A DNA stretch of 52,430 bases, taken from positions 1 through 52,430 of the forward strand of contig CANFLQ010000007.1 in assembly GCA_947447995.1 (NCBI GenBank). The letters are read 5' to 3'. The first letter of the stretch is position 1; the number at the start of each line of letters is the position of its first letter. The position numbers and the translations under genes were made by a program. This document shows, one piece after another, positions 2,425 to 46,665 of the stretch. Source of the stretch: Bacteroidota bacterium (GTDB taxonomy: Bacteria > Bacteroidota > Bacteroidia > 2-12-FULL-35-15). The notes beneath the pieces were generated by a model, which saw nothing but the letters and a program-made list of their open reading frames with translations, was not told the DNA's origin and did no database searches.

Positions 2425-3081
2425 ATGTTGTTACAACAAGTAAAATATCTGATAGCAAAAGAAGTAAAGCTGGAAATGCGCAACAAGTACGCATTGGGAG
2501 GTATTTTATTATATGTTGTTTCTACTGTATTTGTGAGTTATTTATCCTTCAAACAAATTATAAATCCGGCTACCTGGAATGCATTGTTTTGGATTATTTT
2601 ACTTTTTGCATCCATTAACGGAGTGGCTAAGAGTTTTATCAATGAAACAAAAGGAAGGTTACTTTACCTGTACACTTTAGTTAGTCCTCAGGCTGTTATT
2701 CTTTCAAAAATAGCTTATAATTTAGTTTTGCTTTCAGTTATTTCAGCACTTTGTTTGTTTGTGTATACGCTTTTTGTAGGAAATATTATTCAGGATTTAC
2801 CTTTGTTTTTAACAACCCTTTTATTGGGGAGTTTCGGATTTTCCTCTTTACTGACAATGGTTTCAGCAATAGCTTCTAAAACAAGTAACAATTTTACATT
2901 GATGGCTATTCTGAGCTTCCCTATCATGATGCCTTTATTAATGGTATTAATTAAACTTTCAAAAAATGCTATTGACGGTTTGGACTTATGGGATACTAAC
3001 TCATTGCTCATTTTAGTTTTTTTAAACGTGATAATTATCACATTATCTTATTTATTATTTCGTTATCTTTGGCGGGATTAG
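2425..3081 (+). CDS. ccmB: Heme exporter subunit CcmB
   Basis: 218-residue integral membrane protein, the permease-like partner of the CcmA ATPase and CcmC in system I cytochrome c maturation. About six hydrophobic segments are visible and the N terminus (LIAKEVKLEMRNKYALGG) has the family's typical cytoplasmic E-R-K-rich start. It opens a same-strand run of ccm genes. No ccmA lies in this window; if present it must be encoded elsewhere. Confidence 0.93.
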   Translation: MLLQQVKYLIAKEVKLEMRNKYALGGILLYVVSTVFVSYLSFKQIINPATWNALFWIILLFASINGVAKSFINETKGRLLYLYTLVSPQAVILSKIAYNLVLLSVISALCLFVYTLFVGNIIQDLPLFLTTLLLGSFGFSSLLTMVSAIASKTSNNFTLMAILSFPIMMPLLMVLIKLSKNAIDGLDLWDTNSLLILVFLNVIIITLSYLLFRYLWRD

Positions 3082-3139: not shown

Positions 3140-3868
3140 ATGGAATCAGGTACACAAAATAAAACTAATAAAATCCAAAATGTCTCCCCTTCAGGGGCGG
3201 GGGCTTCAAAATACTGGTGGAAAATTTTAGCCGTAATTCTATTGCTATATACCATCATCAAAGGGTTTTTAGGACCGGTGCCTGCTCAACCAATCCTTCA
3301 CGAAAGTATCAGAAATCTATATTTTCATGTACCTATGTGGTTTTCTATGATGGTTATACTTTTCGTATCTGTTTGGCACAGTATCAAATATTTAAGCAAA
3401 TCAACTATTGAAAGCGATATTGTTGCAACTCAGGCTGCACATACAGGAATGTTATTAGGTGCTTTAGGATTAATTACAGGTTCAATCTGGGCTAAGTATA
3501 CTTGGGGAGCATGGTGGGTTGCCGATACAAAACTAAATGGAGCGGCCATTACTATGTTGATTTACCTAGCTTATTTTGTTTTGCGAGGCTCTATTGATGA
3601 GGAACAAAAACGTGCTCGTATTGCAGCAGTATATAATATTTTTGCCTATGTGATGTTGATTGTTTTTTTAATGATATTACCTCGTATGAGCGATTCGCTG
3701 CATCCCGGTAACGGCGGCAACCCTGGATTTAATAAATATGATTTGGATTCAAATATGCGAACTGTATTTTATCCTGCAGTACTTGGTTGGATATTACTTG
3801 CTACTTGGATATTTACCTTGAGAGTTAGATTAGAAAAACTAAAACGTAAAACGTTGCTTAACGATTAA
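3140..3868 (+). CDS. ccmC: Heme handling protein CcmC
   Basis: 242-residue membrane protein of the CcmC/CcsA heme-handling family, which moves heme to the chaperone CcmE. The WWD-type signature appears as WGAWWVADTKLN, preceded by the conserved NLYFHVPMWFSMM segment carrying a histidine ligand. About six membrane helices are present. The first 27 or so residues are odd: the family normally starts just before KYWWKIL, but here the ATG lies upstream and residues 15-24 (VSPSGAGASK) are encoded by a dispersed G/C-rich repeat. No better ATG exists between the repeat and the first helix. Confidence 0.94.
   Translation: MESGTQNKTNKIQNVSPSGAGASKYWWKILAVILLLYTIIKGFLGPVPAQPILHESIRNLYFHVPMWFSMMVILFVSVWHSIKYLSKSTIESDIVATQAAHTGMLLGALGLITGSIWAKYTWGAWWVADTKLNGAAITMLIYLAYFVLRGSIDEEQKRARIAAVYNIFAYVMLIVFLMILPRMSDSLHPGNGGNPGFNKYDLDSNMRTVFYPAVLGWILLATWIFTLRVRLEKLKRKTLLND
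3183..3207 (+). repeat. REP-like repeat, copy B, inside the ccmC reading frame
   Basis: TCTCCCCTTCAGGGGCGGGG followed by GCTTC is a C-rich/G-rich inverted repeat of the same family as 3085-3125 and 38194-38231. It is in frame within the 5' end of ccmC and is translated into residues near 15-24. Confidence 0.6.
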
Positions 3869-3898: not shown

Positions 3899-4117
3899 AT
3901 GAAAAATATACTTACATTTTTAATACTCATTTTATTACCAAAGCTGATTTTTGCTCAGGAAAGTCAACACGTTGAAATGGCTGAAGGCTTGTTTCAATCT
4001 GGAAAAATTTATGTGGTTGTTACTGTGCTAGCTGTAATATTTACTGGTATTGTAGGCTATTTGATTGTTATCGACAGAAAAATTAGCAAGTTGGAAAAAG
4101 AGATAAATAAAAAATAG
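3899..4117 (+). CDS. ccmD: CcmD-like small membrane protein
   Basis: 72-residue protein lying between ccmC and ccmE, the usual place of ccmD. It begins with a hydrophobic signal-like segment ending FAQ (about residue 19). A transmembrane helix follows (about 37-59), then a charged tail, IDRKISKLEKEINKK. CcmD normally stabilises the CcmC-CcmE complex and helps release holo-CcmE. Sequence similarity in such small proteins is weak, so the call depends mainly on layout and operon position. Confidence 0.75.
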   Translation: MKNILTFLILILLPKLIFAQESQHVEMAEGLFQSGKIYVVVTVLAVIFTGIVGYLIVIDRKISKLEKEINKK

Positions 4118-4177: not shown

Positions 4178-4573
4178 ATGAAAAAGACCCACATTATACT
4201 AATAGTAATCATTGCCGTTGCTATAGGTGCTATACTTACAACATTAAATAATACCAGTACTTATGCAAGTTTTCAAGAGGCTAAAGATTCGCCTGATAAT
4301 GAATTTCATATTGTAGGTAAGCTGGATAAGGAAAAAGAGACTATTTATGACCCTAAAGTAAATGCAAATCTGTTTACATTTTACATGAGAGATAATAAAG
4401 GTACTGAATCAAAAGTGGTATTGCATAAAAATAAACCTCAAGACTTTGAACGTTCTGAACAAATTGTTTTAATTGGTAAAATGCAAATGAATGGAAATGA
4501 ATTTCATGCTTCAGAAATATTGATGAAATGTCCATCGAAATACAACGATGGAAAACCTCAAGAAGATAAATAA
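4178..4573 (+). CDS. ccmE: Periplasmic heme chaperone CcmE, CxxxY type
   Basis: 131-residue membrane-anchored OB-fold protein that carries heme from CcmC to CcmF. An N-terminal anchor (about residues 5-23) is followed by the beta-barrel domain with FHIVGKL and VVLIGKMQ. The covalent heme-binding site of classical CcmE is HxxxY. Here the matching place reads CPSKY, with Cys118 and Tyr122. This CxxxY form is a known natural variant. A cysteine in place of histidine implies a different heme linkage. The gene sits between ccmD and ccmF. Confidence 0.93.
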   Translation: MKKTHIILIVIIAVAIGAILTTLNNTSTYASFQEAKDSPDNEFHIVGKLDKEKETIYDPKVNANLFTFYMRDNKGTESKVVLHKNKPQDFERSEQIVLIGKMQMNGNEFHASEILMKCPSKYNDGKPQEDK

Positions 4574-4611
4574 ATTACCGAAGTACGAATAAAAGATGTT
4601 AGTTGAAAAAT

Positions 4612-7050
4612 ATGGAATATGTAGGTGAGCATTTAGGTGTTGGTAAAGTTGGGAATCTATTTGTTATTTTTTCCTTTGTTTTTGCATTATTAGCTAGTAT
4701 CAGTTATTTTTTTGCTGCGAAAGAAAATGATGAATCAGCATCTTGGAAAAAAATAGCACGTATTACTTTTCGTTTACATGGAATATCGGTAATTGGCATC
4801 GTTGTTAGCTTATTCATCATGCTTCAAAATCATTATTTTGAATATGAATATGTGTGGCATCATAGCAATAAAGCAATGCCTATGCGGTATATTCTGTCTT
4901 GCTTTTGGGAAGGACAAGAAGGAAGTTTTTTACTTTGGACCTTTTGGCATGTAATACTAGGGCTGATTTTACAACGTACTTCTAAAAACTGGGAAGCTCC
5001 TGTAATGGCTACTATATCATTGGTTCAGGCATTTTTAGCATCTATGTTATTAGGTGTGTTTGTTTTTGAACACCGCATTGGCAGCAATCCATTTACCGTT
5101 TTACTTCGTGAACATCCAGATTTTTCAAATATTCCTCTTTTCGGCAAACCTGATTATTTAGAAAAATTAGATGGTAGAGGATTAAATCCTTTGCTTCAAA
5201 ATTACTGGATGACCATCCACCCTCCTACTCTTTTCTTGGGATTTGCATCAACAGTTGTTCCTTTTGCTTATGCTATAGCCGGGTTATGGAAAAAGAGATA
5301 TTCGGAATGGGTACGCCCTGCTTTACCCTGGGCATTTTTTGGTGTAATGATATTGGGTACAGGAGTTTTAATGGGTGGAGCTTGGGCTTATGAAGCATTA
5401 AGCTTTGGAGGTTTTTGGGCTTGGGATCCTGTAGAAAATGCCTCTTTGGTTCCATGGTTAACATTTGTTGGAGCCGCTCACGTTATGCTTATTAATCGTA
5501 ATAGTCCACAATCGTTATTTATTACTTTTTTATTACCTATACTTACCTTTTTACTGATTTTATATGCTACTTTTTTAACACGTAGCGGTATATTAGGAGA
5601 ATCATCCGTTCATGCATTTACTGATCTTGGAATGTCCGGGCAGTTATTAATCTATCTTTTGTTTTTTGTTTTTTTAGCCATAGTCCTTATTGCTATTAAT
5701 ATGAAAAATTTCCCTAGAAATAAAGAAGAGGAAGGATTATGGTCGCGCGAATTTTGGATGTTTGTTGGTTCTATTGTTTTATTAGTTTCTTCTTTTCAGA
5801 TTACCTTTTATACTTCCATGCCTGTATGGAATAAATTATTTGATTTACACCGAGCACCTGCAAAAGATGTAGTTGCCTTTTACAACACATGGCAATTGCC
5901 TTTTGCTGTAATAACGCTGTTGTTGATTGCTGTCGGGCAATTTTTCAAATATAAACATACCGATTTGAATGTGTTTATAAAAAAGATGTCCTATTCCTTC
6001 ATTGCTTCATTAATATTTACAGCTTTTATAAGCTATTCATTAAATTATTTCAACAAACCATTTTATGCTCTTTTATTATTTGCCGCTGTATTTGCAACTA
6101 TTGCCAATGCCGATTATATATTACGTGTATTAAAAGGCAACGTAAAAAAAGCGGGAGCATCCATATCTCATATTGGATTTGCATTGATGATGCTCGGTGT
6201 GTTAATATCGACTTCTAAAAAAGATTTTATTTCTCAAAACACTTCGGGTAAAAGCGTTGAAAGTCTGGGAAAAGAATTCTCCAATAACGATAATATTTTA
6301 TTAACCGTGGGTGATACGCTAACAATGGGTAAATACCTTGTAACGTACACAGGAAAAAGGTATGAAGGAATTAATATATATTTTGATGTAGATTATTTTA
6401 CAAAAAATAATGATGGAACATTAAAGAAAGAATTTTCTTTATCACCATTGGTACAAACCAACCCACGTATGGGAAATATTGCTGAGCCGGATACCAGACA
6501 TTATTTAACATTTGATGTTTACACTCACGTTACTTATGCTGATTTGGAAAGCTTACAAGCAAAAAAGAAAGAATCATTAGATGAATATGATAAGGCAAAG
6601 AATTTTCCTATGAAAACCGGAGATACCATTTTTTCGTCCAACGCCATTATTATTTTAGATTCACTTAGCACTAAATTTAACAAAACAAATTATCATTTTT
6701 CAAAGGATGATATAGCTGTAATGGCTTATTTAAGAGTATTAGACATAACAAAAAAATATACAGCAACACCAATATTTGTAATTCACAACAATAATATTCA
6801 ACCTCTTTCATCTAAAGTTGATCCATTAGGATTACAATTCTCCTTCTGGAAAATAGATCCTCAAAATGGTAAAATTGAAATATCCTTACAGGAAAAGAAA
6901 GAAAATACCCGTGATTTTATTGTAATGCAAGCAATGATATTCCCATACATCAATGTGTTATGGATAGGGTGTATTATTATGATTATTGGTACTATACTGG
7001 CAATTATGGAGCGATTAAGAACAATGAAAATTAACGAAAAGAACAAATAA
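4612..7050 (+). CDS. ccmF: Cytochrome c heme lyase subunit CcmF
   Basis: Large polytopic membrane protein of 812 residues that receives heme from CcmE and attaches it to apocytochrome c. The WWD domain is seen as GGFWAWDPVENASL in the first third, with the conserved MTIHPPTLFLGF and FLTRSGILGESSVHAF blocks around it. A periplasmic domain occupies roughly the last 280 residues before a final helix. The ATG at 4612 is preferred; an in-frame TTG nine bases upstream would add three residues. No ccmG or ccmH follows, unlike in proteobacterial ccm operons. Confidence 0.95.
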   Translation: MEYVGEHLGVGKVGNLFVIFSFVFALLASISYFFAAKENDESASWKKIARITFRLHGISVIGIVVSLFIMLQNHYFEYEYVWHHSNKAMPMRYILSCFWEGQEGSFLLWTFWHVILGLILQRTSKNWEAPVMATISLVQAFLASMLLGVFVFEHRIGSNPFTVLLREHPDFSNIPLFGKPDYLEKLDGRGLNPLLQNYWMTIHPPTLFLGFASTVVPFAYAIAGLWKKRYSEWVRPALPWAFFGVMILGTGVLMGGAWAYEALSFGGFWAWDPVENASLVPWLTFVGAAHVMLINRNSPQSLFITFLLPILTFLLILYATFLTRSGILGESSVHAFTDLGMSGQLLIYLLFFVFLAIVLIAINMKNFPRNKEEEGLWSREFWMFVGSIVLLVSSFQITFYTSMPVWNKLFDLHRAPAKDVVAFYNTWQLPFAVITLLLIAVGQFFKYKHTDLNVFIKKMSYSFIASLIFTAFISYSLNYFNKPFYALLLFAAVFATIANADYILRVLKGNVKKAGASISHIGFALMMLGVLISTSKKDFISQNTSGKSVESLGKEFSNNDNILLTVGDTLTMGKYLVTYTGKRYEGINIYFDVDYFTKNNDGTLKKEFSLSPLVQTNPRMGNIAEPDTRHYLTFDVYTHVTYADLESLQAKKKESLDEYDKAKNFPMKTGDTIFSSNAIIILDSLSTKFNKTNYHFSKDDIAVMAYLRVLDITKKYTATPIFVIHNNNIQPLSSKVDPLGLQFSFWKIDPQNGKIEISLQEKKENTRDFIVMQAMIFPYINVLWIGCIIMIIGTILAIMERLRTMKINEKNK

Positions 7051-7083: not shown

Positions 7084-7878
7084 TTGTTTTTGAAAACTAC
7101 AAACTATACTATTGTATTGATTGGTGCGGGGAACGTTGCTACACAACTTGGGCTGGCATTAAAAAAGGCTGGCTTAAACATAATACAGGTGTATAGTAAA
7201 CACAGGTCGTCGTCCCAAAAGCTTGCTAAGCTACTAAAGTGTGAACACACCAACTCTTCCGAAAAAATAAATAAAACTGCAGATATTTACATCGTAGCAG
7301 TAAATGACGACGTTATAGCCGAAGTTGCCAAACAAATATATCTTTCCAATAAAATTGTGGTGCATACTTCCGGTAGTGAGGAAATGAATGTTTTAAAACC
7401 TGCATCAAACAATATTGGTGTTTTTTATCCGCTTCAAACATTTTCAAAAACAAAGAATATAAATTTTGAAAACATTCCTATTTGTTTAGAAGCAAACAAT
7501 ACCAAAACATACAAAACATTAGAACTACTCGCTAAGTTAATCAGCAATAATGTTAAAAAAATAAATTCGGAGCAACGTATTAACATTCATATTGCGGCAG
7601 TATTTGCCTGCAATTTCACCAACCACTTCTACTCTATTGCTGATGATATTTTAAAGTCGAATAAGTTAAGTTTGGATATTATTAAACCGTTAATAGCTGA
7701 AACTGCTGAAAAGATAAAGATTAACCATCCTTCCAAAATGCAAACTGGTCCAGCAATACGAGGTGATAAAAAAACAATGGATAAACATTTAAAAATGCTA
7801 GCCAATAAAGACCATAAAAAGCTTTACCAATTAATTAGTAAAAGTATAATTGGTAAATTTCAGCAAAAGCAAGACTAA
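7084..7878 (+). CDS. Rossmann-like and DUF2520 domain protein
   Basis: 264 residues. The N-terminal Rossmann fold has the dinucleotide motif IGAGNVATQLG (about 13-23). The second half, FYPLQTFSK through HPSKMQTGPAIRGD, is the all-helical DUF2520 domain, which resembles the dimerisation domain of ProC/F420-dependent oxidoreductases. An NAD(P)-dependent dehydrogenase is likely but the substrate is unknown. There is no in-frame ATG after the ccmF stop; the first usable codons are TTG at 7084 or 7090, so a TTG start is inferred. It lies 33 bases after ccmF and probably belongs to that transcript without an evident role in heme. Confidence 0.85.
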   Translation: MFLKTTNYTIVLIGAGNVATQLGLALKKAGLNIIQVYSKHRSSSQKLAKLLKCEHTNSSEKINKTADIYIVAVNDDVIAEVAKQIYLSNKIVVHTSGSEEMNVLKPASNNIGVFYPLQTFSKTKNINFENIPICLEANNTKTYKTLELLAKLISNNVKKINSEQRINIHIAAVFACNFTNHFYSIADDILKSNKLSLDIIKPLIAETAEKIKINHPSKMQTGPAIRGDKKTMDKHLKMLANKDHKKLYQLISKSIIGKFQQKQD

Positions 7879-12530: not shown

Positions 12531-15500
12531 ATGAAATTAGCAATTAGCATACTACTTTCATTTATACTTAGTGCGGTATTAAGCTGTACTGTTTTTTCAC
12601 AAACTAGCAACTGTTCAACTTGCACAAATGCAGGATTTGAATCTGGAACAAGTTCTTGGGATTATTATACTGGTACAGCGTGTCAAAGCCCTACCAGTGA
12701 ACCATGCGACATGGTTTCAGGATTTAATGCTACACAACATTCAATACAAAGCATTGGTGCTTATGACCCTGTTATTGGAGGCACTATTTTACCCGTTGTT
12801 CCGCCAGGTGGTGGATCAAAAGCACTTAGAATTGGGGATGGAAATATTTCTGGGGCCAAGGCTTCTAGAGCTACAATTTATTACAATGTAACACAAGCCA
12901 CGGCTAATTTTGCCTACCAATATGCAGTTGTATTGCAAGAACCTCAGGGAGGTGGAAACCCTCATACAGATGCGCAACGTCCATACTTTACTATAAGAGT
13001 ATACGATGAAAATGGCAATTCAATAGCATGTGGCGACCTATTTGTATTAGCTAGCCCACCCATCACCAATTTTATAGAAGCTAAACCAAATAGTAAAATA
13101 TGGTATCGCCCATGGACAAAAGCGCTAATTAATTTATCTAGCCAAATTGGCAAATGCGTAAAAATAGAATTTACAGCTGCGGATTGTGCACTAAACGAAC
13201 ACTACGGTTATGCTTATGTGGATGCTAATTGCATTTCACTTGACACAATTATAACATCTTCTAACCAATGTGGAGGTTATACCTTAACTGGACCTGTAAA
13301 CGCAAGGGATTATACCTGGACAAATACCACCGTTGGGGGCACAACAGGAATTGATGGTCCTAACAATACACGCACCATAAATATTAATAGATCGGGTACT
13401 TATCAGTTGCTAATGTCATCGGCATTGGGGCCCAATTGTTCAACAAAACTTAATATTACTGTTGATACCGTTTTTTCTAACCCTACTGATTTTACACCAA
13501 ATACTGGTTGTAGTAGTATTACTACTCAATTTAAAGACATTTCAACTCCTGGTGGTACTATTTCAAGTTGGGCTTGGGATTTTAATAACGATGGCGTTAC
13601 CGATAAAACAATAAAAAACCCCAGTTATAACTTCCCCACAGCGGGTATTTATCCTGTAACTTTAAGTATAAAAGTAGGTTCGTGTACTGCTTCTATTACA
13701 AAAAATGTTTCTGTAAATCTTCCATCATTACCAACTATACAACCTGCCGGACCATTCTGTTTGGCTTCTTCTCCCATTACTTTAGTTACAGATATTTCTG
13801 GTGGAACTTGGACAGGTAATGGTATAACCAACGCTTCCACTGGAAATTTTGACCCTTCCCTAGCAAAACCAGGGGATAACCAAATTATTTATTCTACCCC
13901 AGCAAGCTGCCCTGGCAGGGATACAATAACCATACATATCAATGCTCCAATTTCTGTATCTGGTAGCAATCTTAATTTATGTTCGGGGAATACAGGTAAA
14001 CTTGGAGGATCACCTACTTTAGGGTACTCTTATAACTGGACACCTGCAACAGGTTTAAGTGCTACCAATATATCTAACCCTACGGTAACTTTAATAAATA
14101 ATGGTACAACACCTCAATCCTTAGTATATTTTGTAACAACAACTGTGGACTCCACAGGATGTTATTCTTCCGATTCGGTAAAAGTAACCGTAAATTCAAA
14201 ACCATTAGTAAATGCTGGTAACAATCAATCTATTTGCAGTGGATCAACTGTTGCCTTGGCTGGATCTGTTGCTGGTTCGGCAAGCAGCTATACTTGGTTA
14301 GGAGGCACTGGAACTTATAACCCCAATAACACAACTTTAACAAATATATACACGCCAAGTGCAACTGAAATTGCCTCTGGAAGCGCAACTTTAACCTTAA
14401 CTGCAAATGCCCCTCTGGGAACTTGTTCTCAGGTAATAGATGCTATTACCATTTATATTAGCAAAACACCAACAGTTAGTGTTGGATCCGACCAAACTGT
14501 TTGTGCTGGCAATACTATTAATTTGAGTGCCACCCTTGGAGGATCGGCAAACAGTGGTTCATGGTTGGGCGGAGCAGGTACTTTTAACCCTAACAATAGC
14601 AGCACAAACGTTGCATATACATCGGATCCAACCGAAGAATCTAATGGCTATGTTACCCTCACATTTACTAGCAATGATCCTCCTGGAGCGTGCAGTTCTG
14701 CATCTGATCAAGTTAAAATTTTTATGCTCCCTAAAGCAATAGCAAATGCTGGGGCAGATAAGGCGCTGTGTTATGGATCACCTGTTTTGCTTGCGGGTTC
14801 GGTTACCGGAAACGGTACTACTGCTACTTGGAGCGGAGGAGCAGGAACCTTTAGTCCTGACAATAAAAACATTATGGCTTCTTACACACCATCGGCAGCG
14901 GAATTAACTGCTGGTAGTTTTATTTTAACTTTAACAACCGATGCTTCCGCTCCATGTCCCTCTTACAGTGATCAGGTTAAAATTACTGTTAACCAAACGG
15001 CTACAGTAAATGCAGGTATGGACCAATTAATTTGTATTGATAGCACTGTGTCAACGGCAAACACCATAACTCTAGCGGCTAGTTATGGTGGAGCTGCTTC
15101 TTCAGGATTATGGACTGGAGGAGCTGGAACCTTTAGTCCCAACAATACTGTTGCAAATGCTACATACTCCTTAAATAAATCAGAAATAAATAAAGCAAAC
15201 CTTAACTTAATATTTACAACGAATGATCCGGCCGGACCTTGCCCTTCGGTAAATGATCAAATGAGCATTATCATCAATCAAATACCAAGAGTAAATGCAG
15301 GAGCTGACCAAACCGTTTGCGAGGGATCTACAATTGTATTATCTGGAGCTGTAAGCGGAACCGCTACTGATGTAAATTGGACAGGCGGTTCTGGAACTTT
15401 TAATCCAAATAACAAAAGTATAAACAGTATATACACTCCAACTGCTATAGAGGCTGTATCTGGCAATGTATTTTTAACAGTAACTACCAACGACCCTATT

Positions 15501-16919
15501 GGGCCTTGCCCTGCCGCTTCCGATCAAATGCAATTAAATATCAATTCTACGGCAACTGTAAATGCTGGGGTAGACCAAATTATTTGTATTGGTAATATTG
15601 TTAGTTTGGCTGCTACTTTAAGTGGATCAGCTAGTAGCGGCGTTTGGACTGGAGGTACTGGTACTTTTAATCCAAACAATACAAATCCAAATGCAATATA
15701 TACACCATCGATATCGGAAAAAACAGCAGGAAATGTACTACTCACTTACACATCAAACGACCCTAGCGGACCATGTAATGCAACAAGCGACCAACTAACA
15801 ATTACCATTAATCAACTACCTAGCGTAAATCCAGGTACTACTCAACCTGTATGCTCTGGATTAGCAGTTCCTTTAGCAGGTTCAATTGGAGGTTCCGCAA
15901 AAAATGGAATATGGTCTGGAGGAAATGGTAAATACGCACCCAACAATATCACATTAAATGCTATATACACTCCAACTAAAGCAGAATATGATGCAGGAAC
16001 TACTACATTAACATTAACATCAAACGACCCTACAGGACCTTGTATGTCAACTTCAGGAAAGGTAAAACTTACTTTTTACCAACCGCCAATTGTTAACTTC
16101 AATGTAAACTCAAGTTCGGGCTGCACTATACATTGTAGCGATTTTACTGAGCAAGCTACGGTGATTGGAGGAGGAAACATTATTAACTGGAATTGGGATT
16201 TTGGTGATGGTGGCTTCAGCAATATTAAAGCACCCAAACATTGTTACTACCAAAGCGGTAATTTTGGTGTTACTTTAAGAGTTACCGATGACAAAGGGTG
16301 TACAGCTTCTGTTATTAAAGATAGCGCAATATTGGTTTTTGAAAAACCAAATGCAGCTTTTTTCGCAACACCTAATCCTGTTTCTCAAATAGATCCTACA
16401 GTAAATTTTCAGAATCAATCATCAAAAGATGTTAATTATTGGTTTTGGGATTTTGGTGATGGAGAAACATTTTCACCAGACCAACCTAATCCATCTCACA
16501 TATACCCTAGCCTAGTTGATAGAAATTATCAACCAGTGTTAATAGTTAGAAATGCAAACTTGTGTTATGATACTGTAAGTTTAGGAAATTTGATACACAT
16601 AGACCCTCAATATTCATTTTACATACCAACTGCTTTTACCCCCGATAATAAAGATGGTGTTAATGATTATTTTTATGGACAAGGTACTGGTATTGATATT
16701 TATGACCTTTGGATTTATGACCGATGGGGAAATATTGTTTTTCATAGTAAAGATTTGAATGAAAAATGGGACGGCAAAGCTTTGGAAATGACTGCATTTT
16801 TTGGATCTAATACAGGAAAAGAACAAGCACAGCGCGATGTTTTTGTTTGGAGGGTTATTTTAACAGATGTTTTTGGCAATTTACATAATTACAATGGCAC
16901 TGTTACCTTGGTTAGATAA
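12531..16919 (+). CDS. Large T9SS type B secreted surface protein with PKD and tandem repeat domains
   Basis: 1462 residues. A signal peptide (MKLAISILLS to about SQTSN) is followed by a lectin-like N-terminal region of about 220 residues. A PKD domain lies near 340-390 (SSWAWDFNNDG). Seven tandem domains of about 90 residues follow (556-1183), each with NAG.(D/N)Q..C, a W.GG.GTF.P(N/D)N centre and a ..C...D end. Two more PKD domains have WNWDFGDGG and WFWDFGDGE. The last 100 residues (from about 1361, YIPTAFTPDNKDGVND, IYDRWGN) are the gliding motility-associated type B sorting domain, which directs export by the type IX system. Probably an adhesin or surface filament protein; no enzymatic domain was recognised. 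Confidence 0.93.
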   Translation: MKLAISILLSFILSAVLSCTVFSQTSNCSTCTNAGFESGTSSWDYYTGTACQSPTSEPCDMVSGFNATQHSIQSIGAYDPVIGGTILPVVPPGGGSKALRIGDGNISGAKASRATIYYNVTQATANFAYQYAVVLQEPQGGGNPHTDAQRPYFTIRVYDENGNSIACGDLFVLASPPITNFIEAKPNSKIWYRPWTKALINLSSQIGKCVKIEFTAADCALNEHYGYAYVDANCISLDTIITSSNQCGGYTLTGPVNARDYTWTNTTVGGTTGIDGPNNTRTININRSGTYQLLMSSALGPNCSTKLNITVDTVFSNPTDFTPNTGCSSITTQFKDISTPGGTISSWAWDFNNDGVTDKTIKNPSYNFPTAGIYPVTLSIKVGSCTASITKNVSVNLPSLPTIQPAGPFCLASSPITLVTDISGGTWTGNGITNASTGNFDPSLAKPGDNQIIYSTPASCPGRDTITIHINAPISVSGSNLNLCSGNTGKLGGSPTLGYSYNWTPATGLSATNISNPTVTLINNGTTPQSLVYFVTTTVDSTGCYSSDSVKVTVNSKPLVNAGNNQSICSGSTVALAGSVAGSASSYTWLGGTGTYNPNNTTLTNIYTPSATEIASGSATLTLTANAPLGTCSQVIDAITIYISKTPTVSVGSDQTVCAGNTINLSATLGGSANSGSWLGGAGTFNPNNSSTNVAYTSDPTEESNGYVTLTFTSNDPPGACSSASDQVKIFMLPKAIANAGADKALCYGSPVLLAGSVTGNGTTATWSGGAGTFSPDNKNIMASYTPSAAELTAGSFILTLTTDASAPCPSYSDQVKITVNQTATVNAGMDQLICIDSTVSTANTITLAASYGGAASSGLWTGGAGTFSPNNTVANATYSLNKSEINKANLNLIFTTNDPAGPCPSVNDQMSIIINQIPRVNAGADQTVCEGSTIVLSGAVSGTATDVNWTGGSGTFNPNNKSINSIYTPTAIEAVSGNVFLTVTTNDPIGPCPAASDQMQLNINSTATVNAGVDQIICIGNIVSLAATLSGSASSGVWTGGTGTFNPNNTNPNAIYTPSISEKTAGNVLLTYTSNDPSGPCNATSDQLTITINQLPSVNPGTTQPVCSGLAVPLAGSIGGSAKNGIWSGGNGKYAPNNITLNAIYTPTKAEYDAGTTTLTLTSNDPTGPCMSTSGKVKLTFYQPPIVNFNVNSSSGCTIHCSDFTEQATVIGGGNIINWNWDFGDGGFSNIKAPKHCYYQSGNFGVTLRVTDDKGCTASVIKDSAILVFEKPNAAFFATPNPVSQIDPTVNFQNQSSKDVNYWFWDFGDGETFSPDQPNPSHIYPSLVDRNYQPVLIVRNANLCYDTVSLGNLIHIDPQYSFYIPTAFTPDNKDGVNDYFYGQGTGIDIYDLWIYDRWGNIVFHSKDLNEKWDGKALEMTAFFGSNTGKEQAQRDVFVWRVILTDVFGNLHNYNGTVTLVR
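14197..16080 (+). repeat. Seven tandem domain repeats within the surface protein gene
   Basis: Seven consecutive units of roughly 260-280 bases encode about 88-95 residues each. Conserved positions across units are NAG..Q..C near the start, (L/T/S)GG.GTF.PNN in the middle and SNDP.GPC near the end. Units are clearly diverged at both DNA and protein level, so the array is old rather than recently expanded. Confidence 0.9.
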
Positions 16920-32340: not shown

Positions 32341-33828
32341 ATGATTATGGAAGCAAGTGTACTTAAATTACCGGAATCGGAATTATTTACCGATTATTAT
32401 TTCAAAGAAAACACATTTGATGAAGTTTTTAAAAAAAACTCCCCAGCCAATGCTTACTATAATCGTTTGTTATCGCTTATATCCTCCTACTCTACCAATG
32501 AGTTTAAAATTTTAAACGAGTCCACAAAAAAAAGTTTTATTAGTCGTGGTGTTACGTTCGCTACTTATTCGGACAACCCTAAAGGCAACGAACGTATTTT
32601 CCCTTTTGATCTTTTTCCTAGAATAATTCCTCAATCGGAATGGCGCGTGCTTGAAAAAGGTTTAAAACAGAGAAACAGAGCCATCAACTTATTTATAGAC
32701 GATTTGTATCACGACAGTAAAATACTACGAGATAAAATTGTTCCGGTAGATTTGATTTTATCCTGCTCCAACTACAACCGTTATATGAAGGACTTTAAAC
32801 CTACTGGCGGAGTGTACAATCATATTTCGGGAACGGACATTATCAAACACAACGATGGAAAATATTATGTATTGGAAGATAACGTGCGTTGCCCATCAGG
32901 TGTAAGTTATGTGCTAGCTAACCGCGATGCCATGAAAAAAACGATACCAAGTGTTTTCTCTAACTTTAATATTTCGCCTGTTTCGGATTATCCCGAAGCA
33001 TTGCAAGAGATGATGCACAGCGTAAAATCCGATAAAGTAGATAATCCTAACTGTGTAGTGTTAACTCCTGGAGCTTACAACTCGGCGTATTACGAACACT
33101 CGTTCCTTGCGCAAAGCATGGGCATTGAACTGGTGGAAGGTAGAGATATGTTTACCGACAACGATTTTGTATACATGCACACCGTATATGGCGCTAAACG
33201 TGTAGATGTGATATACCGTCGTATTGATGATGATTTTATTGATCCATTGGTGTTTCGTCCCGACTCAGCATTGGGTGTACCCGGATTAATGTCGGCTTAC
33301 CGCAAAGGCAATGTTACTATCTTAAATGCACCCGGCACAGGCATTGCCGATGACAAAGCGGTGTATGCCTATATGCCGGAAATAATAAAATATTATTTGG
33401 ATGAGGAACCTATTTTAAATAACGTACCAACTTACCGTTGTGATGTAAAACAGGAAATGGATTATGTGCTGGAACATATTGCCGAACTGGTGGTAAAACC
33501 CGTGGATCAATCGGGTGGATACGGCATCTTCATCGGCAACCAAGCAACTCAAGCGCAAATAGAGGAACAAAAAAACATTATCAAAGCGCATCCGCGTGGG
33601 TACATTGCGCAACCTACCATGAGCCTGTCGGTACATTCAACTTTTATTGAAGATGAAAATAAATTTGAACCCCGTCACATCGACCTTAGAACATATACCT
33701 TGTTAAGTCCTGATAAGGAGTTTGTATTAAAAGGTGGCTTATCGAGGGTTGCACTCAAAAAAGGAAACCTGATTGTAAATTCTTCGCAAGGTGGCGGAAG
33801 TAAAGATACTTGGGTGATGGAAGAGTAA
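32341..33828 (+). CDS. Circularly permuted ATP-grasp protein (DUF404/DUF407)
   Basis: 495 residues of the circularly permuted ATP-grasp family. Characteristic blocks are FPFDLFPRIIP-SEW near 95, the DNVRCPSGVSYVLANR motif near 180, VDVIYRRIDDDFIDP near 290, and VVKPVDQSGGYGIFIG near 385, a glycine-rich nucleotide loop. The C-terminal SSQGGGSKDTWVMEE is conserved. ATP-grasp enzymes join carboxylates to amines or thiols, so a peptide-like ligase is expected; the substrate is unknown. First of three same-strand genes, followed by alpha-E and transglutaminase genes, the standard partners. Confidence 0.93.
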   Translation: MIMEASVLKLPESELFTDYYFKENTFDEVFKKNSPANAYYNRLLSLISSYSTNEFKILNESTKKSFISRGVTFATYSDNPKGNERIFPFDLFPRIIPQSEWRVLEKGLKQRNRAINLFIDDLYHDSKILRDKIVPVDLILSCSNYNRYMKDFKPTGGVYNHISGTDIIKHNDGKYYVLEDNVRCPSGVSYVLANRDAMKKTIPSVFSNFNISPVSDYPEALQEMMHSVKSDKVDNPNCVVLTPGAYNSAYYEHSFLAQSMGIELVEGRDMFTDNDFVYMHTVYGAKRVDVIYRRIDDDFIDPLVFRPDSALGVPGLMSAYRKGNVTILNAPGTGIADDKAVYAYMPEIIKYYLDEEPILNNVPTYRCDVKQEMDYVLEHIAELVVKPVDQSGGYGIFIGNQATQAQIEEQKNIIKAHPRGYIAQPTMSLSVHSTFIEDENKFEPRHIDLRTYTLLSPDKEFVLKGGLSRVALKKGNLIVNSSQGGGSKDTWVMEE

Positions 33829-33851
33829 ATAGATTAGCCGATTGTCAATGT

Positions 33852-33880
33852 GCTAATTGTCAATTAAAAAAACAATTAGC
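33852..33880 (+). terminator. AT-rich hairpin after the ATP-grasp gene
   Basis: GCTAATTG and CAATTAGC form an 8-base perfect stem 24 bases after the stop codon, followed by TTATTCTG and an A-run. Low stability; possibly an attenuating hairpin rather than a true terminator. Confidence 0.3.
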
Positions 33881-33970
33881 TTATTCTGAAAAAAAAATAG
33901 TATATAAATTATAATTAGATAACCTTTACATCAGACTGTGACCTAACAATTTTTTACCATAAATAATCAA

Positions 33971-33996
33971 TCGATAATCAGCACATTGATTATCGA
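33971..33996 (+). promoter_or_regulatory. Perfect hairpin in the leader of the alpha-E gene
   Basis: TCGATAATCA and TGATTATCGA are exact reverse complements around a GCACAT loop, ending 15 bases before the ATG at 34012. It could regulate translation or be a dispersed repeat; it could also be an operator. Confidence 0.4.
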
Positions 33997-34011
33997 ATAA
34001 TCAATAAAAAT

Positions 34012-34947
34012 ATGCTATCACGTGTTGCCGACAACCTGTTTTGGATGGGTAGGTATTTAGAACGAAGCGAACATTTGGCTCGTTTTTTAAATGTACAATA
34101 TTTTTCGTCAATAGAACTGCCCTATCCGCAAATGCGGGAACAGGCATTGCTATCAGTATTAAATATGGCAGGAACAGAATTAGAAAATGATAAACCTACC
34201 GAGGAAGAAATACTTTTTTCGGTTGGGCTGGATGGCGATAACCCTGCTTCTATTTTATCTGCCGTTTATAGTGGTCGAGAAAACGCCCGAAGCGTGCGTG
34301 ATTCTTTATCTACGGAAGTATGGGAAGCTTTTAATAAGTATTACCTCTTTGTTTCGGATTACCCTGTAAGTGTTTATAAAACAAAAGGGTTGGATAATTT
34401 TACAACCGGCAGTATTAACCATTGCGCCATTGTAAAAGGTAAAATCCATCAAACATTGCTGCGCAACGAAACGTTTCACTTTTTACAAATTGGGAAACAT
34501 ATTGAGCGTGCCATACAAATCATTCGTATTATGCTTAGTAAAATGGCAGACATCAACGAAGTAAACAAACTAAAAGTGGGCAGTACCCTAGAACTACAAC
34601 AATGGAACATTATTTTAGATTGCCTTGAGGCGAAGGATATGTGTCGTAAACATTACCATTCCTTACCCAACAAACACAATACAATTGACTTTTTGCTGTT
34701 TACTCCCAACTTTCCGTTTTCGGTAGCTTATAACTTAGGCTTTGTGTATAAACATTTGCAACTGATCAACAAAGCAAAAGATGAAAAACCGGGATCTCTG
34801 GAGTTTAAAGTAGGTAAGGTAATTAATGATTTTCGTTATCGTGAAATGGAGGATTTTAAAGATGATATTCCTAGTTTTTTACAGGAAACACTTGATAAAA
34901 TTTACTTGATTTGTAACGAAATTCACAACGAATATTTTAAGTATTAA
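34012..34947 (+). CDS. Alpha-E domain protein (DUF403)
   Basis: 311 residues, nearly all helical. The family start MLSRVADNLFWMGRYLERSEH with the paired E/R motif is clear, as are SILSAVYSGRENARSVRDSLS near 80 and GKHIERAIQIIRIML near 160. Alpha-E proteins always occur with circularly permuted ATP-grasp and transglutaminase-like proteins and are suspected partners in peptide synthesis or modification. The same domain is fused to the ATP-grasp in the protein at 40388-42955. Its stop overlaps the next start by one base (TAATG). Confidence 0.93.
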   Translation: MLSRVADNLFWMGRYLERSEHLARFLNVQYFSSIELPYPQMREQALLSVLNMAGTELENDKPTEEEILFSVGLDGDNPASILSAVYSGRENARSVRDSLSTEVWEAFNKYYLFVSDYPVSVYKTKGLDNFTTGSINHCAIVKGKIHQTLLRNETFHFLQIGKHIERAIQIIRIMLSKMADINEVNKLKVGSTLELQQWNIILDCLEAKDMCRKHYHSLPNKHNTIDFLLFTPNFPFSVAYNLGFVYKHLQLINKAKDEKPGSLEFKVGKVINDFRYREMEDFKDDIPSFLQETLDKIYLICNEIHNEYFKY

Positions 34948-35801
34948 TGGCTCTTTATAACATTCGTTACGAAACTGTAAATAATTATAACAGTCCGGTT
35001 AACGAAGCATACCTTAACTTTTTGATCATCCCACAAGAAACGGAAGATCAACACTGCTTTAACCTAAGCATAGAGAGCAATCACAAAGCTGAAGCTCAGT
35101 TCAGCGAAACGTTGTACGGAGCAAAAGCTGCATTATTCAGGCTTAAAGGTCCGTTCATATTATTTGAACTCACCATGACCGTTCAGGTAGAAAAACAGTT
35201 ATGGAACTTCCCATCATTTAAAAACATTTCAATTGCAGATGAAAGAGCAATTTTGGAAGATCATATTTTTAAGGTGAAAAATAAAGATTTTATTATTCCT
35301 ACAACGCTTACCGAAATTAATGCTAACCAACTTCCTCCGGAAACTTTTATATTACCTAGTGAAACGGTGTTTCAGTATGTGCAACGCATCAATACTTTTT
35401 TACACTATTTTTTAAGTTACGAAGCAAATGTTACCACTCCTATAACCACTTTGCCGGAAATTATTCAACTCAGAAAAGGTGTTTGTCAGGATTACTCCCA
35501 TTTATTTATTGGCATTATGCGCCATAATGGGATTCCGGTACGTTATGTTTCGGGATATTTGAATCAGGGAAAACAATACATTGGTGCTGCCGCAATGCAT
35601 GCCTGGGTAGAAGTATTTGTGCCTTCAATTGGATGGCTAGGCATTGACCCTACCAACAATATTTTTGTAAACGAACATTATATAAAAGTTGCGCATGGCT
35701 GCGATTACATTGATTGCACTACTGTAAAAGGTGTGTATCTGTCTGATAGCGGTGGCACTACTTCGTATAGCGTACAGATAACAGAACAACAAAGTCAGTA
35801 G
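34947..35801 (+). CDS. Transglutaminase-like cysteine protease family protein
   Basis: 284 residues. An N-terminal beta-rich Bact_transglu_N-like domain (about 1-120) precedes the transglutaminase core. The catalytic triad is complete: Cys180 in KGVCQDYSHL, His218 in AAMHAWVEVF and Asp234 in WLGIDPTNN. Bacterial members are likely peptidases or amidases rather than cross-linkers. Translation is coupled to the alpha-E gene by a one-base overlap, completing the three-gene unit. Confidence 0.93.
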   Translation: MALYNIRYETVNNYNSPVNEAYLNFLIIPQETEDQHCFNLSIESNHKAEAQFSETLYGAKAALFRLKGPFILFELTMTVQVEKQLWNFPSFKNISIADERAILEDHIFKVKNKDFIIPTTLTEINANQLPPETFILPSETVFQYVQRINTFLHYFLSYEANVTTPITTLPEIIQLRKGVCQDYSHLFIGIMRHNGIPVRYVSGYLNQGKQYIGAAAMHAWVEVFVPSIGWLGIDPTNNIFVNEHYIKVAHGCDYIDCTTVKGVYLSDSGGTTSYSVQITEQQSQ

Positions 35802-35958: not shown

Positions 35959-36957
35959 ATGACAGAGATCAGACATAACTGGAGCAACGAAGAAATTTTA
36001 GACATATACAACATGCCTTTGCTTGACCTTATTTATAAGGCGCAAACCGTTCATCGTGAATTTAACGATGCTAGTGAAGTGCAGGTGAGTTCATTATTAT
36101 CTATAAAAACAGGAGGTTGCGCCGAAGATTGCGGCTACTGCCCGCAAGCTGCACGTTACAATACAGGCATTGAAGTTCATAAATTAATGACCGTTAACGA
36201 AGTAATGGATGCTGCCGACCAAGCCAAAGAAGGGGGAGCATCCCGCTTATGTATGGGTGCCGCTTGGCGCGAAGTACGCGACAATCGCGATTTTGACCGT
36301 GTGCTGGAAATGGTAAAAGGCGTTAACCAAAAAGGTATGGAAGTATGCTGCACGCTTGGTATGCTTACCGAATCGCAAGCTCAAAAATTAGCTGATGCTG
36401 GTTTATATGCTTACAACCATAATTTAGATACATCCGAGGAAAGTTATAAAAAGATCATCACCACCCGTAGCTATGACGACCGTTTGGATACTATCTCCAA
36501 CGTTAGAAAAGCGAAAGTAAGTGTTTGTTCAGGCGGTATCATCGGCTTAGGCGAAACGGTTGAAGATCGCGTGAGTATGTTAAAAACATTATCATCCATG
36601 GCAGTGCATCCCGAATCAGTTCCAATAAACGCATTGGTTCCTGTTGCAGGTACTCCATTGGAAAATCAACCATTGGTTCCTATCTGGGACATGGTACGTA
36701 TGATCGCTACCACACGTATTGTTATTCCTAAAACAGTAGTTCGCCTTTCGGCAGGACGAACACAAATGAGTTTGGAAGGACAAGCACTGTGTTTTCTTGC
36801 TGGTGCTAACTCTATTTTTGCAGGTAACAAATTGTTAACCACTCCAAACCCTGAATTTAATGAGGACATGGAGATGTTCAAATTATTTGGATTAACTCCG
36901 CGTAAAGCGTTTAAGGGAACAAAGCAACCAAGAAAAGAGGCAATAGCGAATAGTTAA
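35959..36957 (+). CDS. bioB: Biotin synthase BioB
   Basis: 332-residue radical SAM enzyme that inserts sulfur into dethiobiotin. The radical cluster motif CxxxCxxC is Cys54, Cys58 and Cys61 in [12 protein letters not shown]. Conserved YNHNLDTS and the RLSAGR block with the arginine that contacts the second cluster are present. First of three biotin genes (bioB, bioF, bioA); bioD is not in the window. Confidence 0.97.
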
Positions 36958-37002
36958 TAGATAATAAATAGTGGACAAAGTTATGATTTACAATTTAGAT
37001 TA

Positions 37003-37036
37003 AAACTTTGAACTTTCAAACTTTAAACTTTGAACT
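37003..37036 (+). repeat. CTTTAAACTTT-type dispersed repeat overlapping the bioF start
   Basis: Near-identical to the repeat before bioB (units AACTTTCAAACTTTAAACTT). The repeat runs into the bioF coding region; the only plausible start, TTG at 37030, lies inside it. Confidence 0.6.
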
Positions 37037-38178
37037 CTTCCGACTTCCCAGCAGACAAATTCCTTACGCAATCACTCCTTAAACGCCAGGAACAAAATGC
37101 TTTTCGCAAATTGTTACCCGACAATTCCTTAGTTGATTTTTGCAGCAACGATTATTTAGGCTTTGCAAAATCTGCTGAATTAAAAAATAATATAAATACC
37201 GAATACGCTTCTTTAACTAATCAAACAAATGGCGCTACCGGCTCTAGACTATTGGCTGGCAACTCTGATTACGCAGAAGAGTTAGAAAAAAAAACTGCCA
37301 TCTTCCACAATACAGAAGCGGGCTTGATATACAATTCGGGGTACGATGCCAATGTGGGTTTGTTCTCTGCATTAGGTCGTAAAGGCGATACCATTATTTA
37401 TGATGAATTGATACATGCTTCGGTACATGACGGCATGCGCATGTCAAAAGCTACAACATTTGCTTTCAAACACAACAATGTGAACGATCTGGAAGAACAA
37501 CTAAAAACTGCTCAGGGAACAATATATATATCTGTTGAAAGTATTTATTCCATGGATGGAGATTGCGCCCCTCTTCTAGAAATAGTTGCACTATGCAAAA
37601 AGTACACGGCCAATTTAATTGTGGACGAAGCCCATGCAACAGGAGTTACGCCAAACGCTGGCAAAGGTAAAGTGCAGGAATTAAATTTAGAAAATGAAAT
37701 ATTTGCCCGTGTGCATACCTTCAGCAAAGCTTTGGGATGCCACGGAGCAATTGTATTAGGAAGTAATTTACTACGTGATTTCCTCATAAACTATTCCCGT
37801 GCATTTATTTACACTACGGCTCTTCCAATTAAAAGTCTGGTTACCATTAACCAAGCGTATCTGCTATTAAAACAAAATAGTGATGCCATTACAAGGCTCA
37901 ATAAAAATGTAAGTATTTTTAAAAACAACATTGCAAAAAACAAGAACATACATTTAGTTAAAAATGATAGTCCGATACAAAGTATTATTGTAAGTGGAAA
38001 CGATGAAGTAAAACAATTGGCAGAAAAAATAAAAAAGGAAGGCTATGATGTTCGTGCAATTGTAAGTCCGACAGTAGCTAAAGGCTCTGAGCGCTTGCGT
38101 ATTTGTATTCATGCCTTTAATACAACAGATGAAATACAAAAACTTTGCAAAATAATTAATACTTTACTAAACAACTAA
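37030..38178 (+). CDS. bioF: 8-amino-7-oxononanoate synthase BioF
   Basis: 382-residue PLP enzyme of the alpha-oxoamine synthase family, condensing pimeloyl thioester with alanine. Seen are VDFCSNDYLGFA, GATGSRLLAGN, the DEAHATG block and the PLP lysine in HTFSKALGCHG. There is no ATG: an in-frame TAA lies at 37024 and the first start-like codon is TTG at 37030, giving LNSSDFPADKF, a normal family N terminus. The start therefore appears to be TTG, within a dispersed repeat. Same-strand neighbours bioB and bioA support the pathway. Confidence 0.95.
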   Translation: MNSSDFPADKFLTQSLLKRQEQNAFRKLLPDNSLVDFCSNDYLGFAKSAELKNNINTEYASLTNQTNGATGSRLLAGNSDYAEELEKKTAIFHNTEAGLIYNSGYDANVGLFSALGRKGDTIIYDELIHASVHDGMRMSKATTFAFKHNNVNDLEEQLKTAQGTIYISVESIYSMDGDCAPLLEIVALCKKYTANLIVDEAHATGVTPNAGKGKVQELNLENEIFARVHTFSKALGCHGAIVLGSNLLRDFLINYSRAFIYTTALPIKSLVTINQAYLLLKQNSDAITRLNKNVSIFKNNIAKNKNIHLVKNDSPIQSIIVSGNDEVKQLAEKIKKEGYDVRAIVSPTVAKGSERLRICIHAFNTTDEIQKLCKIINTLLNN

Positions 38179-38193
38179 CATAAACATACCTAA

Positions 38194-38231
38194 CTCCCCT
38201 CTCCTTTAGGAGAGGGGCTGGGGGTGAGGCT
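38194..38231 (+). repeat. REP-like palindromic repeat, copy C, before bioA
   Basis: Perfect 10-base arms CCCCTCTCCT / AGGAGAGGGG with a TT centre, followed by CTGGGGGTGAGGCT. This is the best-conserved copy of the family also seen at 3085-3125 and 3183-3207. The tail ends one base before the bioA ATG and contains an in-frame GTG. Confidence 0.75.
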
Positions 38232-38232
38232 C

Positions 38233-39510
38233 ATGAATTTAGCAAACAGAGACAAAAATGCCGTATGGCATCCTTTCACACAACTAAAAGCTGCGCCTTT
38301 ACCTATTGCTATTGTAAAAGGAGAAGGCGCCTATTTTTATGATGAAAATGGCAAACGCTATATTGATGGCATTGCATCCTGGTGGGTAAACATACACGGA
38401 CATTGTCATCCTTACTTAACTAAAAAAATAACCGAACAATTACAAACACTTGAACACGCTATCTTTTCGGGGTTTACCCATGAACCTGCTGTTCAACTAG
38501 CCGAGCGTTTATTAAAACGATTACCGCAAAATCAATCAAAAATATTTTATTCAGATAACGGCTCTACCGCTGTGGAAGTTGCCTTGAAAATGGCATTTCA
38601 ATACTGGAGTAATTTATCCATTCCTAAAACAAAAGTAATAGCATTTGAGAATGGGTATCATGGAGATACGTTTGGAGGAATGTCTGTTGGCGCACGTAAT
38701 GCTTTTAACAATCCATTTTCAAAGTTATTGTTTGATGTAATTCATATTCCGGTTCCTATTAAGGGAAAAGAGAATGAAACTATTTCAGCTTTAAAAACCG
38801 CTTTACAGCAAAATGATATAGCATCCTTTATTTTTGAACCATTAATACAAGGTGCGGGCGGAATGGTAATGTATTCCCAAAAAATTCTTGATGAGATAAT
38901 AGCACTTTGTCGTGCTAAAAATGTAATTACCATTGCCGATGAAGTAATGACAGGCTTTGGAAGAACGGGGAAATTCTTTGCAAGCGACCATTTACAACAC
39001 AATCCAGACATACTTTGTATGAGTAAAGGAATAACAGGAGGTGTAATGCCTTTAGGTGCAACATCCTGCGCTCAATTTATTTACGATGCTTTTTTGAGTG
39101 ATGATAAAATGAAGACTTTTTTTCACGGACATTCGTATACTGCAAATCCTACCGCCTGTTCAGCTGCCTTGGCAAGCATGGATATGTTTGATGCACCGGA
39201 AGCCTTTGAAAACATAATGCGAATTGAACAACAACATGCCACATTTTTACAAAAAATAAAATCGCATAAAGCATTAATAGAAGTTCGCCAATTGGGAACC
39301 ATCATTGCTTTTGAAATAAAAACAAAAGAGCATACACATTACTTAAATTCATTGTCGGAATACATCTCAGAGTTTTTTATTCAACGTGGAATTATACTTC
39401 GTCCATTAGGAAATATTGTTTACATACTCCCACCCTATTGTATTAGTAATAACGATTTGGAATATATATATAGTGCTGTTGAGGAATTTCTGGAAACCCA
39501 ATTAATTTAA
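38233..39510 (+). CDS. bioA: Adenosylmethionine-8-amino-7-oxononanoate aminotransferase BioA
   Basis: 425-residue class III aminotransferase that converts 8-amino-7-oxononanoate to 7,8-diaminononanoate. Diagnostic blocks are VWHPFTQL at the start, GIASWWVNIHGH, the aspartate in TIADEVMTGFGRTGKFF and the PLP lysine in MSKGITGG. The ATG at 38233 gives the family start MNLANRDKNAVWHPF; the GTG nine bases upstream belongs to the REP-like repeat. Its stop converges on the transglutaminase gene with an 18-base gap. Confidence 0.96.
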   Translation: MNLANRDKNAVWHPFTQLKAAPLPIAIVKGEGAYFYDENGKRYIDGIASWWVNIHGHCHPYLTKKITEQLQTLEHAIFSGFTHEPAVQLAERLLKRLPQNQSKIFYSDNGSTAVEVALKMAFQYWSNLSIPKTKVIAFENGYHGDTFGGMSVGARNAFNNPFSKLLFDVIHIPVPIKGKENETISALKTALQQNDIASFIFEPLIQGAGGMVMYSQKILDEIIALCRAKNVITIADEVMTGFGRTGKFFASDHLQHNPDILCMSKGITGGVMPLGATSCAQFIYDAFLSDDKMKTFFHGHSYTANPTACSAALASMDMFDAPEAFENIMRIEQQHATFLQKIKSHKALIEVRQLGTIIAFEIKTKEHTHYLNSLSEYISEFFIQRGIILRPLGNIVYILPPYCISNNDLEYIYSAVEEFLETQLI

Positions 39511-42955: not shown

Positions 42956-42988
42956 CTTAAAATTTTATAATAGGCATACTGAATAAAG

Positions 42989-42996
42989 CAAAAATA
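42989..42996 (-). promoter_or_regulatory. -7 promoter element for the ATP-grasp/alpha-E fusion gene
   Basis: The minus strand reads TATTTTTG (TAnnTTTG), 33 bases upstream of the start. The base composition makes chance matches likely. Confidence 0.35.
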
Positions 42997-43038
42997 ATAG
43001 ATTTATAGAGAGCTTGTTTAAATTTTACTGAAACAATT

Positions 43039-43191: not shown

Positions 43192-43258
43192 ATTTAAATA
43201 CAATATAAAACTAATAGTATTTTCTATATTGACTTTAATTTCACCCAACTTCTATAAA

Positions 43259-46618: not shown

Positions 46619-46657
46619 AATACGACATTTGCTTTCATTAGAAAAAGTAATGTATTG

Positions 46658-46665
46658 CAAAATTA
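46658..46665 (-). promoter_or_regulatory. -7 promoter element for the DUF2126 gene
   Basis: The minus strand reads TAATTTTG (TAnnTTTG), 39 bases upstream of the chosen start at 46618. Its position just upstream of the longer frame's first codon also favours the shorter start. Confidence 0.45.

Follow-up and report, generated by a model that had tools for sequence, protein, structure and literature searches.

Cysteine-type CcmE and a dispersed CcmA-like ATPase as its putative partner in the cytochrome c maturation of Bacteroidota

Described cysteine-type systems and the ccm cluster of the window

The cysteine-CcmE Ccm system of Desulfovibrio is known as System I* (Goddard et al. 2010 and Allen et al. 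2006, via PMC3601427) and yields holocytochrome c without CcmG and CcmH, according to the available part of PMC3601427. In the same source, CPSKY is the commonest form of variant CcmE, found in 25 of 36 bacterial genomes, mostly from delta-Proteobacteria together with Chloroflexi and Firmicutes, and about one third of the bacteria with a variant CcmE keep CcmH. The cysteine of the CXXXY motif is also required for haem attachment to CcmE of Methanosarcina acetivorans (available part of PMC9084895). Regarding the ABC unit, the accessible portions of two papers disagree, since CcmB is described as the haem translocase and always the second gene of ccmABCD in PMC11868835, whereas PMC12077264 assigns the channel to CcmCD and to CcmAB no more than the release of holo-CcmE. 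The CcmC/CcmD alignment in the latter includes Cytophagia and Chitinophagia and, thus, the presence of System I in Bacteroidota is already published. No description of a cysteine CcmE, of CcmH loss or of a dispersed CcmA in Bacteroidota was found in the open-licence PubMed Central literature.

The window, that is, the whole stretch of 52,430 nucleotides that was analysed, corresponds to contig C7 in full, one of the 207 contigs of an assembly of 3.08 Mb; this draft genome is 94% complete and, therefore, absences from it are not absolute. It carries a ccm cluster that starts with ccmB, upstream of which lies a divergent glutathione-peroxidase-like gene, and that comprises, together with its 3' neighbour, the following features:

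2425..3081, + strand: ccmB, ABC-type permease, 218 aa (PF03379, 39.1 bits, cut-off 24.9)
3140..3868, + strand: ccmC, 242 aa (PF01578, 64 bits; alignment with E. coli CcmC)
3899..4117, + strand: ccmD-like small membrane protein, 72 aa (PF20077 CcmD_alt, 75.5 bits; TIGR04391, 32.4 bits, cut-off 24)
4178..4573, + strand: ccmE, cysteine type, 131 aa, ATG start (PF03100, 44.5 bits, Pfam gathering cut-off 24.6; alignment with E. coli CcmE; OB-fold model)
4529..4543, + strand: codons of C118-P-S-K-Y122, predicted haem-attachment motif (direct sequence reading)
4603..7050, + strand: ccmF, 815 aa from TTG or 812 aa from the ATG at 4612 (PF01578, PF16327)
7084..7878, + strand: DUF2520/NADP-oxidoreductase-like gene (PF10728, 126.6 bits)

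The original prediction that CcmE has Cys118-PSK-Tyr122 instead of HxxxY is borne out by the reading of ORF 4178-4573 (+), which contains ...EILMKCPSKYNDG... with K117-C118-P-S-K-Y122, and by the alignment with CcmE of E. coli K-12, in which C118 aligns with H130 and Y122 with Y134. Both NCBIfam CcmE models that match the protein do so far below their own cut-offs. Its AlphaFold2 model (mean pLDDT 83.9) consists of an N-terminal helix (residues 3-23) and an OB-fold beta barrel, and the best Foldseek matches of this model include the solved CcmE structures 1lm0, 1j6q and 2kct, the last of which is the cysteine-type CcmE of D. vulgaris. The top rank goes to another OB-fold, that of replication protein A (4gop), and a search of solved structures with the CcmE sequence retrieves the D. 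vulgaris protein only at E 0.77. Judged from its sequence, this CcmE is of the cysteine type, of the System I* kind. No second CcmE was found in the 94%-complete genome, in which ORF 4178-4573 is the single copy.

CcmC keeps the WWD segment and both histidines matching H60 and H184 of E. coli CcmC in the alignment, and its match to TIGR01191 (ccmC) reaches 84 bits, below the cut-off of 186. In CcmF, H203, H290, H334 and H520 are the aligned counterparts of E. coli H173, H261, H303 and H491, and the four histidines are invariant in 38 of 38 aligned CcmF proteins; the roles of the haem residues in CcmC and CcmF are taken from the available parts of PMC9616876 and PMC3884852. The Ccm machine is probably functional.

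After the last conserved histidine, CcmF has about 240 residues, mainly beta (540-780 in the model), versus roughly 95 in E. coli. The sole significant Foldseek match of the whole CcmF model is CcmF itself, from Thermus (6zmq), and the extra region (6232-6939) matches no Pfam family. CcmF of E. coli has 647 aa, and in 13 loci belonging to other classes the CcmF ORF measures 688-875 aa from stop to stop; the ORFs in the remaining loci have a median of 825 aa (n = 121), some of them being cut at locus ends and some coming from outside the class. It might be guessed that the enlarged periplasmic domain of CcmF takes over the task of CcmH.

On the 3' side, ccmF is followed by the DUF2520 gene, and none of ccmA, ccmG and ccmH adjoins the ccm cluster on the window, both in agreement with the claims that an unrelated gene comes directly after ccmF and that these three genes are not nearby. 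Of 91 Bacteroidia loci that have ccmF, 63 carry the DUF2520 gene no more than 1 kb away from it, which makes it a conserved ccmF neighbour, although one without a known link to haem or to the pathway. A Bacteroidia-type ccmE-ccmF-DUF2520 cluster is also present on L097, a contig assigned to a MAG of Competibacteraceae and probably mis-binned. No CXXCH motif occurs in the protein frames of at least 80 aa on the window.

The cysteine CcmE in the phylum

CcmE is present in 254 of 394 genomes drawn evenly from the phylum and, within the class Bacteroidia, in 205 of 247; the carriers include the named genera Chitinophaga, Pedobacter and Mucilaginibacter. The motif was read in 95 CcmE-bearing genomes, a non-random pick from the 254 that leaves 159 others unread, made up of the own genome, the 30 best-scoring (L015-L044), 20 chosen (L045-L064), 30 low-scoring (L168-L197) and 14 further ones drawn from L198-L217, six of these loci being repeats. 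Cys and Tyr are found in all 95, with CPSKY in 94 and CPSRY in one (L212), and no HxxxY CcmE occurs among them. KCPSKY shows no variation in a set of diverse Bacteroidota CcmE proteins (14 of 14) or in a set from Bacteroidia (35 of 35), which argues that the motif is not due to chance. The rows of the set of 35 other than that of the window come from loci located by the pattern L[MTV]KCPSKY and are thus biased, whereas the set of 14 and the census of 95 are free of this bias; loci L077-L156, located by a pattern containing KCPSKY, were excluded from the census.

On these motif counts, the cysteine form appears fixed and is the normal CcmE of Bacteroidota, not an oddity of one genome. The description of CxxxY as a minority variant stands for bacteria at large (available part of PMC3601427) and fails within Bacteroidota, where each of the 95 genomes whose motif was read has the cysteine. 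Additional CcmE-like frames without the Cys/His motif are located beside a normal cysteine CcmE at L147:9534-9920 and L209:7115-7540, and L133 has two adjacent CcmE matches.

CcmH, CcmG, System II and the CcmA-like ATPase

The own 94%-complete genome has no match to CcmH (PF03918) at E ≤ 0.001, the best one having an E of 5.67. A genome search was the check suggested for the original prediction, and neither ccmH nor a second CcmE of the HxxxY kind was encountered elsewhere in the genome, nor a complete ccmG, since CcmG has no match over its cut-off. Among the 394 genomes of the phylum, 11 have a PF03918 match at E ≤ 0.001, and only 4 have one that reaches the family cut-off. Ten of 12 CcmH-family matches are CXC-rich domains (L065-L072, L074, L076), eight of them with zinc-ribbon-like CXXC pairs N-terminally; these weak matches may be CcmH-like thiol domains that have diverged within a part of Bacteroidota. 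Regarding CcmG/DsbE (TIGR00385), six weak thioredoxin-like matches are found in the own genome (best 46.4 bits, cut-off 123.15), and a protein of this type could do the work of CcmG, so the function of CcmG cannot be called absent.

System II ResB gives no match above its cut-off in the own genome (best 16.7 vs. 24.6 bits), and on this result from a 94%-complete draft System II was rejected as the actual maturation route. The single weak ResB match outside ccmF overlaps an ORF that resembles, by eye, a type II secretion/pilin-assembly membrane protein. Since the genome has five cytochrome c domain matches over the cut-off and yet no ResB over the cut-off, the Ccm pathway is the evident maturation route. 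The idea of a reduced pathway is right in that a cysteine CcmE occurs without detectable CcmH and wrong with respect to ccmA, which is dispersed rather than absent.

Another contig carries the gene of a CcmA-like ATPase, at G000:C97:6112-6756, contrary to the idea of a missing ccmA. Not one of 55 Bacteroidia loci with ccmB has an ABC ATPase within 3 kb of it, and in several other Bacteroidota families an ATPase gene directly precedes ccmB (L064, L198, L202, L210, L214). That ccmB comes first in Bacteroidia without an adjacent ATPase contradicts its placement as always the second gene (available part of PMC11868835). A profile built from the five ccmB-adjacent ATPases (A2) was searched in 49 chosen genomes. 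In the own genome, the C97 protein stands out with 170.2 bits (next best 125.9), and the scores are 139-172 bits in other CcmE-positive Bacteroidia (n = 14) versus 124-138 in CcmE-negative ones (n = 6). The gene stood out only with a profile made from ccmB-adjacent ATPases of Bacteroidota. Against TIGR01189 (CcmA, cut-off 131.6 bits), the C97 ATPase scores 83 and the ccmB-adjacent one of L064 scores 92.9, both below the cut-off, and the protein is therefore called CcmA-like and not CcmA. This identity is supported by genome G188, in which the CcmA-like gene adjoins ccmB, apart from ccmC-E-F. The TIGR01189 match on C58 was ruled out as CcmA, being ModC-like and encoded beside a ModB-like gene, as were the other top matches, which are LptB, GldA and MlaF-like proteins. 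Genome G085 (locus L207, outside Bacteroidia) has ccmB-C-E with a best A2 match of only E 1.5e-28 and may truly lack CcmA.

In the own genome, the CcmA-like gene begins directly after lpxA, behind lpxC/fabZ, the gene names being judged from translations. The same lpxC/fabZ-lpxA neighbourhood is found in 14 of 15 Bacteroidia of a first set. In a second set of 20 genomes, hand-picked to span families among the matches listed for a Bacteroidia profile (A3), the ATPase gene follows lpxA in 13, within 100 bases in 12 of them and at 876 bases in the other. In a maximum-likelihood tree, 41 CcmA-like rows, all from within the phylum and including the ccmB-adjacent ones, are split with support 100/100 from the outgroup of nine other ABC ATPases of the own genome; duplicate loci of one ORF (L243-L245, L247, L263-L267) had been removed beforehand, both for the tree and for the count of switch residues. 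Profile A3, with a threshold of E ≤ 1e-44 fixed before the results were seen, was applied to the 247 class genomes and gives one match each in 192. CcmE and the ATPase occur together in 190 genomes, CcmE only in 15, the ATPase only in 2 and neither in 40, these counts and the Fisher test on them being uncorrected for kinship.

One column of the ATPase alignment corresponds to the catalytic switch-loop histidine of ABC transporters. This position is occupied by asparagine in all CcmA-like proteins, 41 of 41 in one set and 20 of 20 in the other, the 61 being the own ATPase and 60 other CcmA-like proteins, and by histidine in the nine other own ABC ATPases and in E. coli CcmA. The active site of the CcmA-like ATPase thus looks unusual. 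The protein would pair with CcmB, and this dispersed ATPase with an asparagine switch, the less expected part of the system, is put forward as a hypothesis.

Proposed mechanism and alternative readings

The cluster most likely encodes, at a probability of roughly 0.85, a machine for cytochrome c maturation of the System I* type, in its Bacteroidota form, with a dispersed CcmA-like ATPase. It shares with System I* the Cys and the Tyr at +4 of CcmE, the CPSKY sequence, and the lack of CcmH and of a recognisable CcmG. However, CcmH is nearly absent from the Bacteroidota sample, whereas about a third of the bacteria in PMC3601427 keep it, ccmA is dispersed in Bacteroidia, and the variant spans Bacteroidota, which is not among the groups named in the available part of that paper. 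The CcmABCEF system of M. acetivorans is similar in its CXXXY CcmE, its lack of CcmH/I and its dispersed ccm genes, but it has no CcmD and a CcmF split in two (available part of PMC9084895), in contrast to the CcmD-like gene and the single enlarged CcmF found here. CcmABCDEFGH of E. coli has in common with the cluster the order ccmB-C-D-E-F, the residues by which CcmC and CcmF ligate haem, and the fold and the Tyr of CcmE; it differs in that here Cys118 replaces His130, CcmH is absent, CcmG is unrecognisable, the CcmA-like gene is elsewhere and has asparagine for the switch histidine, and the periplasmic domain of CcmF has about twice the length.

In the proposed mechanism, which follows the sequence of steps described for E. 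coli (available parts of PMC12077264 and PMC9616876), CcmC and CcmD would present haem to CcmE, where Cys118 would bind it through a single vinyl group (presumably forming a thioether) and Tyr122 would become a ligand of the iron. The ABC unit of CcmB and the CcmA-like ATPase, the latter encoded beside lpxA, would then spend ATP to free holo-CcmE from CcmC, and CcmF alone, without CcmH, would transfer the haem to apocytochromes c. We infer the haem chemistry at Cys118 and the division of labour among the Ccm proteins from steps that are shown at the genomic level.

The bond at Cys118 is uncertain, because haem binding is reported as non-covalent for CcmE of D. vulgaris and as covalent for that of D. 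desulfuricans (available part of PMC3884852). Cys118 could act solely as an axial thiolate ligand, with CcmE as a haem buffer instead of a covalent chaperone, as suggested by D. vulgaris CcmE, which binds ferric haem non-covalently through C127 (PMC3884852, in the part available). Nevertheless, the covalent cysteine holo-CcmE shown for D. desulfuricans (available part of PMC3601427) and the dependence of haem-stainable CcmE on the cysteine in M. acetivorans (available part of PMC9084895) make this improbable. Further points against the main reading are the score of the ATPase below the NCBIfam CcmA cut-off, the 15 of 205 CcmE-bearing Bacteroidia without an ATPase match at E 1e-44 and the lpxA neighbourhood, which could instead indicate a role in envelope lipids. 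The Ccm set might also work without any CcmA, CcmB and CcmC acting ATPase-free and the lpxA-linked ATPase serving lipid A or another envelope process. The lack of an ATPase gene near ccmB in the 55 Bacteroidia loci and the lpxA-linked position in 14 of 15 and 13 of 20 genomes would fit such an arrangement, as would the formation of holo-CcmE in E. coli without CcmAB (available part of PMC12077264). This alternative is nonetheless considered quite unlikely, since the ATPase shares its clade and its asparagine switch with the ccmB-adjacent ATPases and is present in 190 of 205 CcmE-positive versus 2 of 42 CcmE-negative Bacteroidia, a distribution that a role in lipid A would not predict; moreover, ATP hydrolysis by CcmA has been reported as necessary to release holo-CcmE (PMC9616876, in the part available).

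It is very improbable that CcmE is degenerate or has been replaced by another maturation system. The moderate Pfam score of 44.5 bits and the low NCBIfam scores would speak for degeneration, but KCPSKY is invariant, the haem residues of CcmC and CcmF are intact, no ResB passes its cut-off, and 205 of 247 Bacteroidia retain CcmE. A System I* machine with a dispersed CcmA-like ATPase remains the preferred reading, and a bolder extension of it, possible but doubtful, is that Bacteroidota have their own variant of System I*, in which the cysteine CcmE is fixed, CcmH has been dispensed with, the asparagine-switch ATPase resides in the lipid A operon (in Bacteroidia) and the enlarged periplasmic domain of CcmF handles the apocytochrome, elsewhere a task of CcmH. 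If so, the move of the ATPase into this operon would tie haem export to envelope synthesis. The asparagine-switch CcmA-like ATPase also bears on the dispute over the roles of CcmA and CcmB (PMC11868835 vs. PMC12077264, in their available parts). Moreover, the breaking of the thioether-like bond to the CcmE cysteine and the need for CcmH are open points raised in the available part of PMC3601427, and Bacteroidota would offer a whole phylum in which to address them, with the cysteine form apparently fixed and CcmH nearly absent.

Elsewhere on the window, several genes were recognised by eye: a secreted protein of 1462 aa with PKD-like repeats, whose C-terminus is gliding/T9SS-like (12531-16919), two clusters resembling circularly permuted ATP-grasp, alpha-E and transglutaminase-like genes (32341-35801 and 39529-46660) and three consecutive genes resembling bioB, bioF and bioA (35959-39510).
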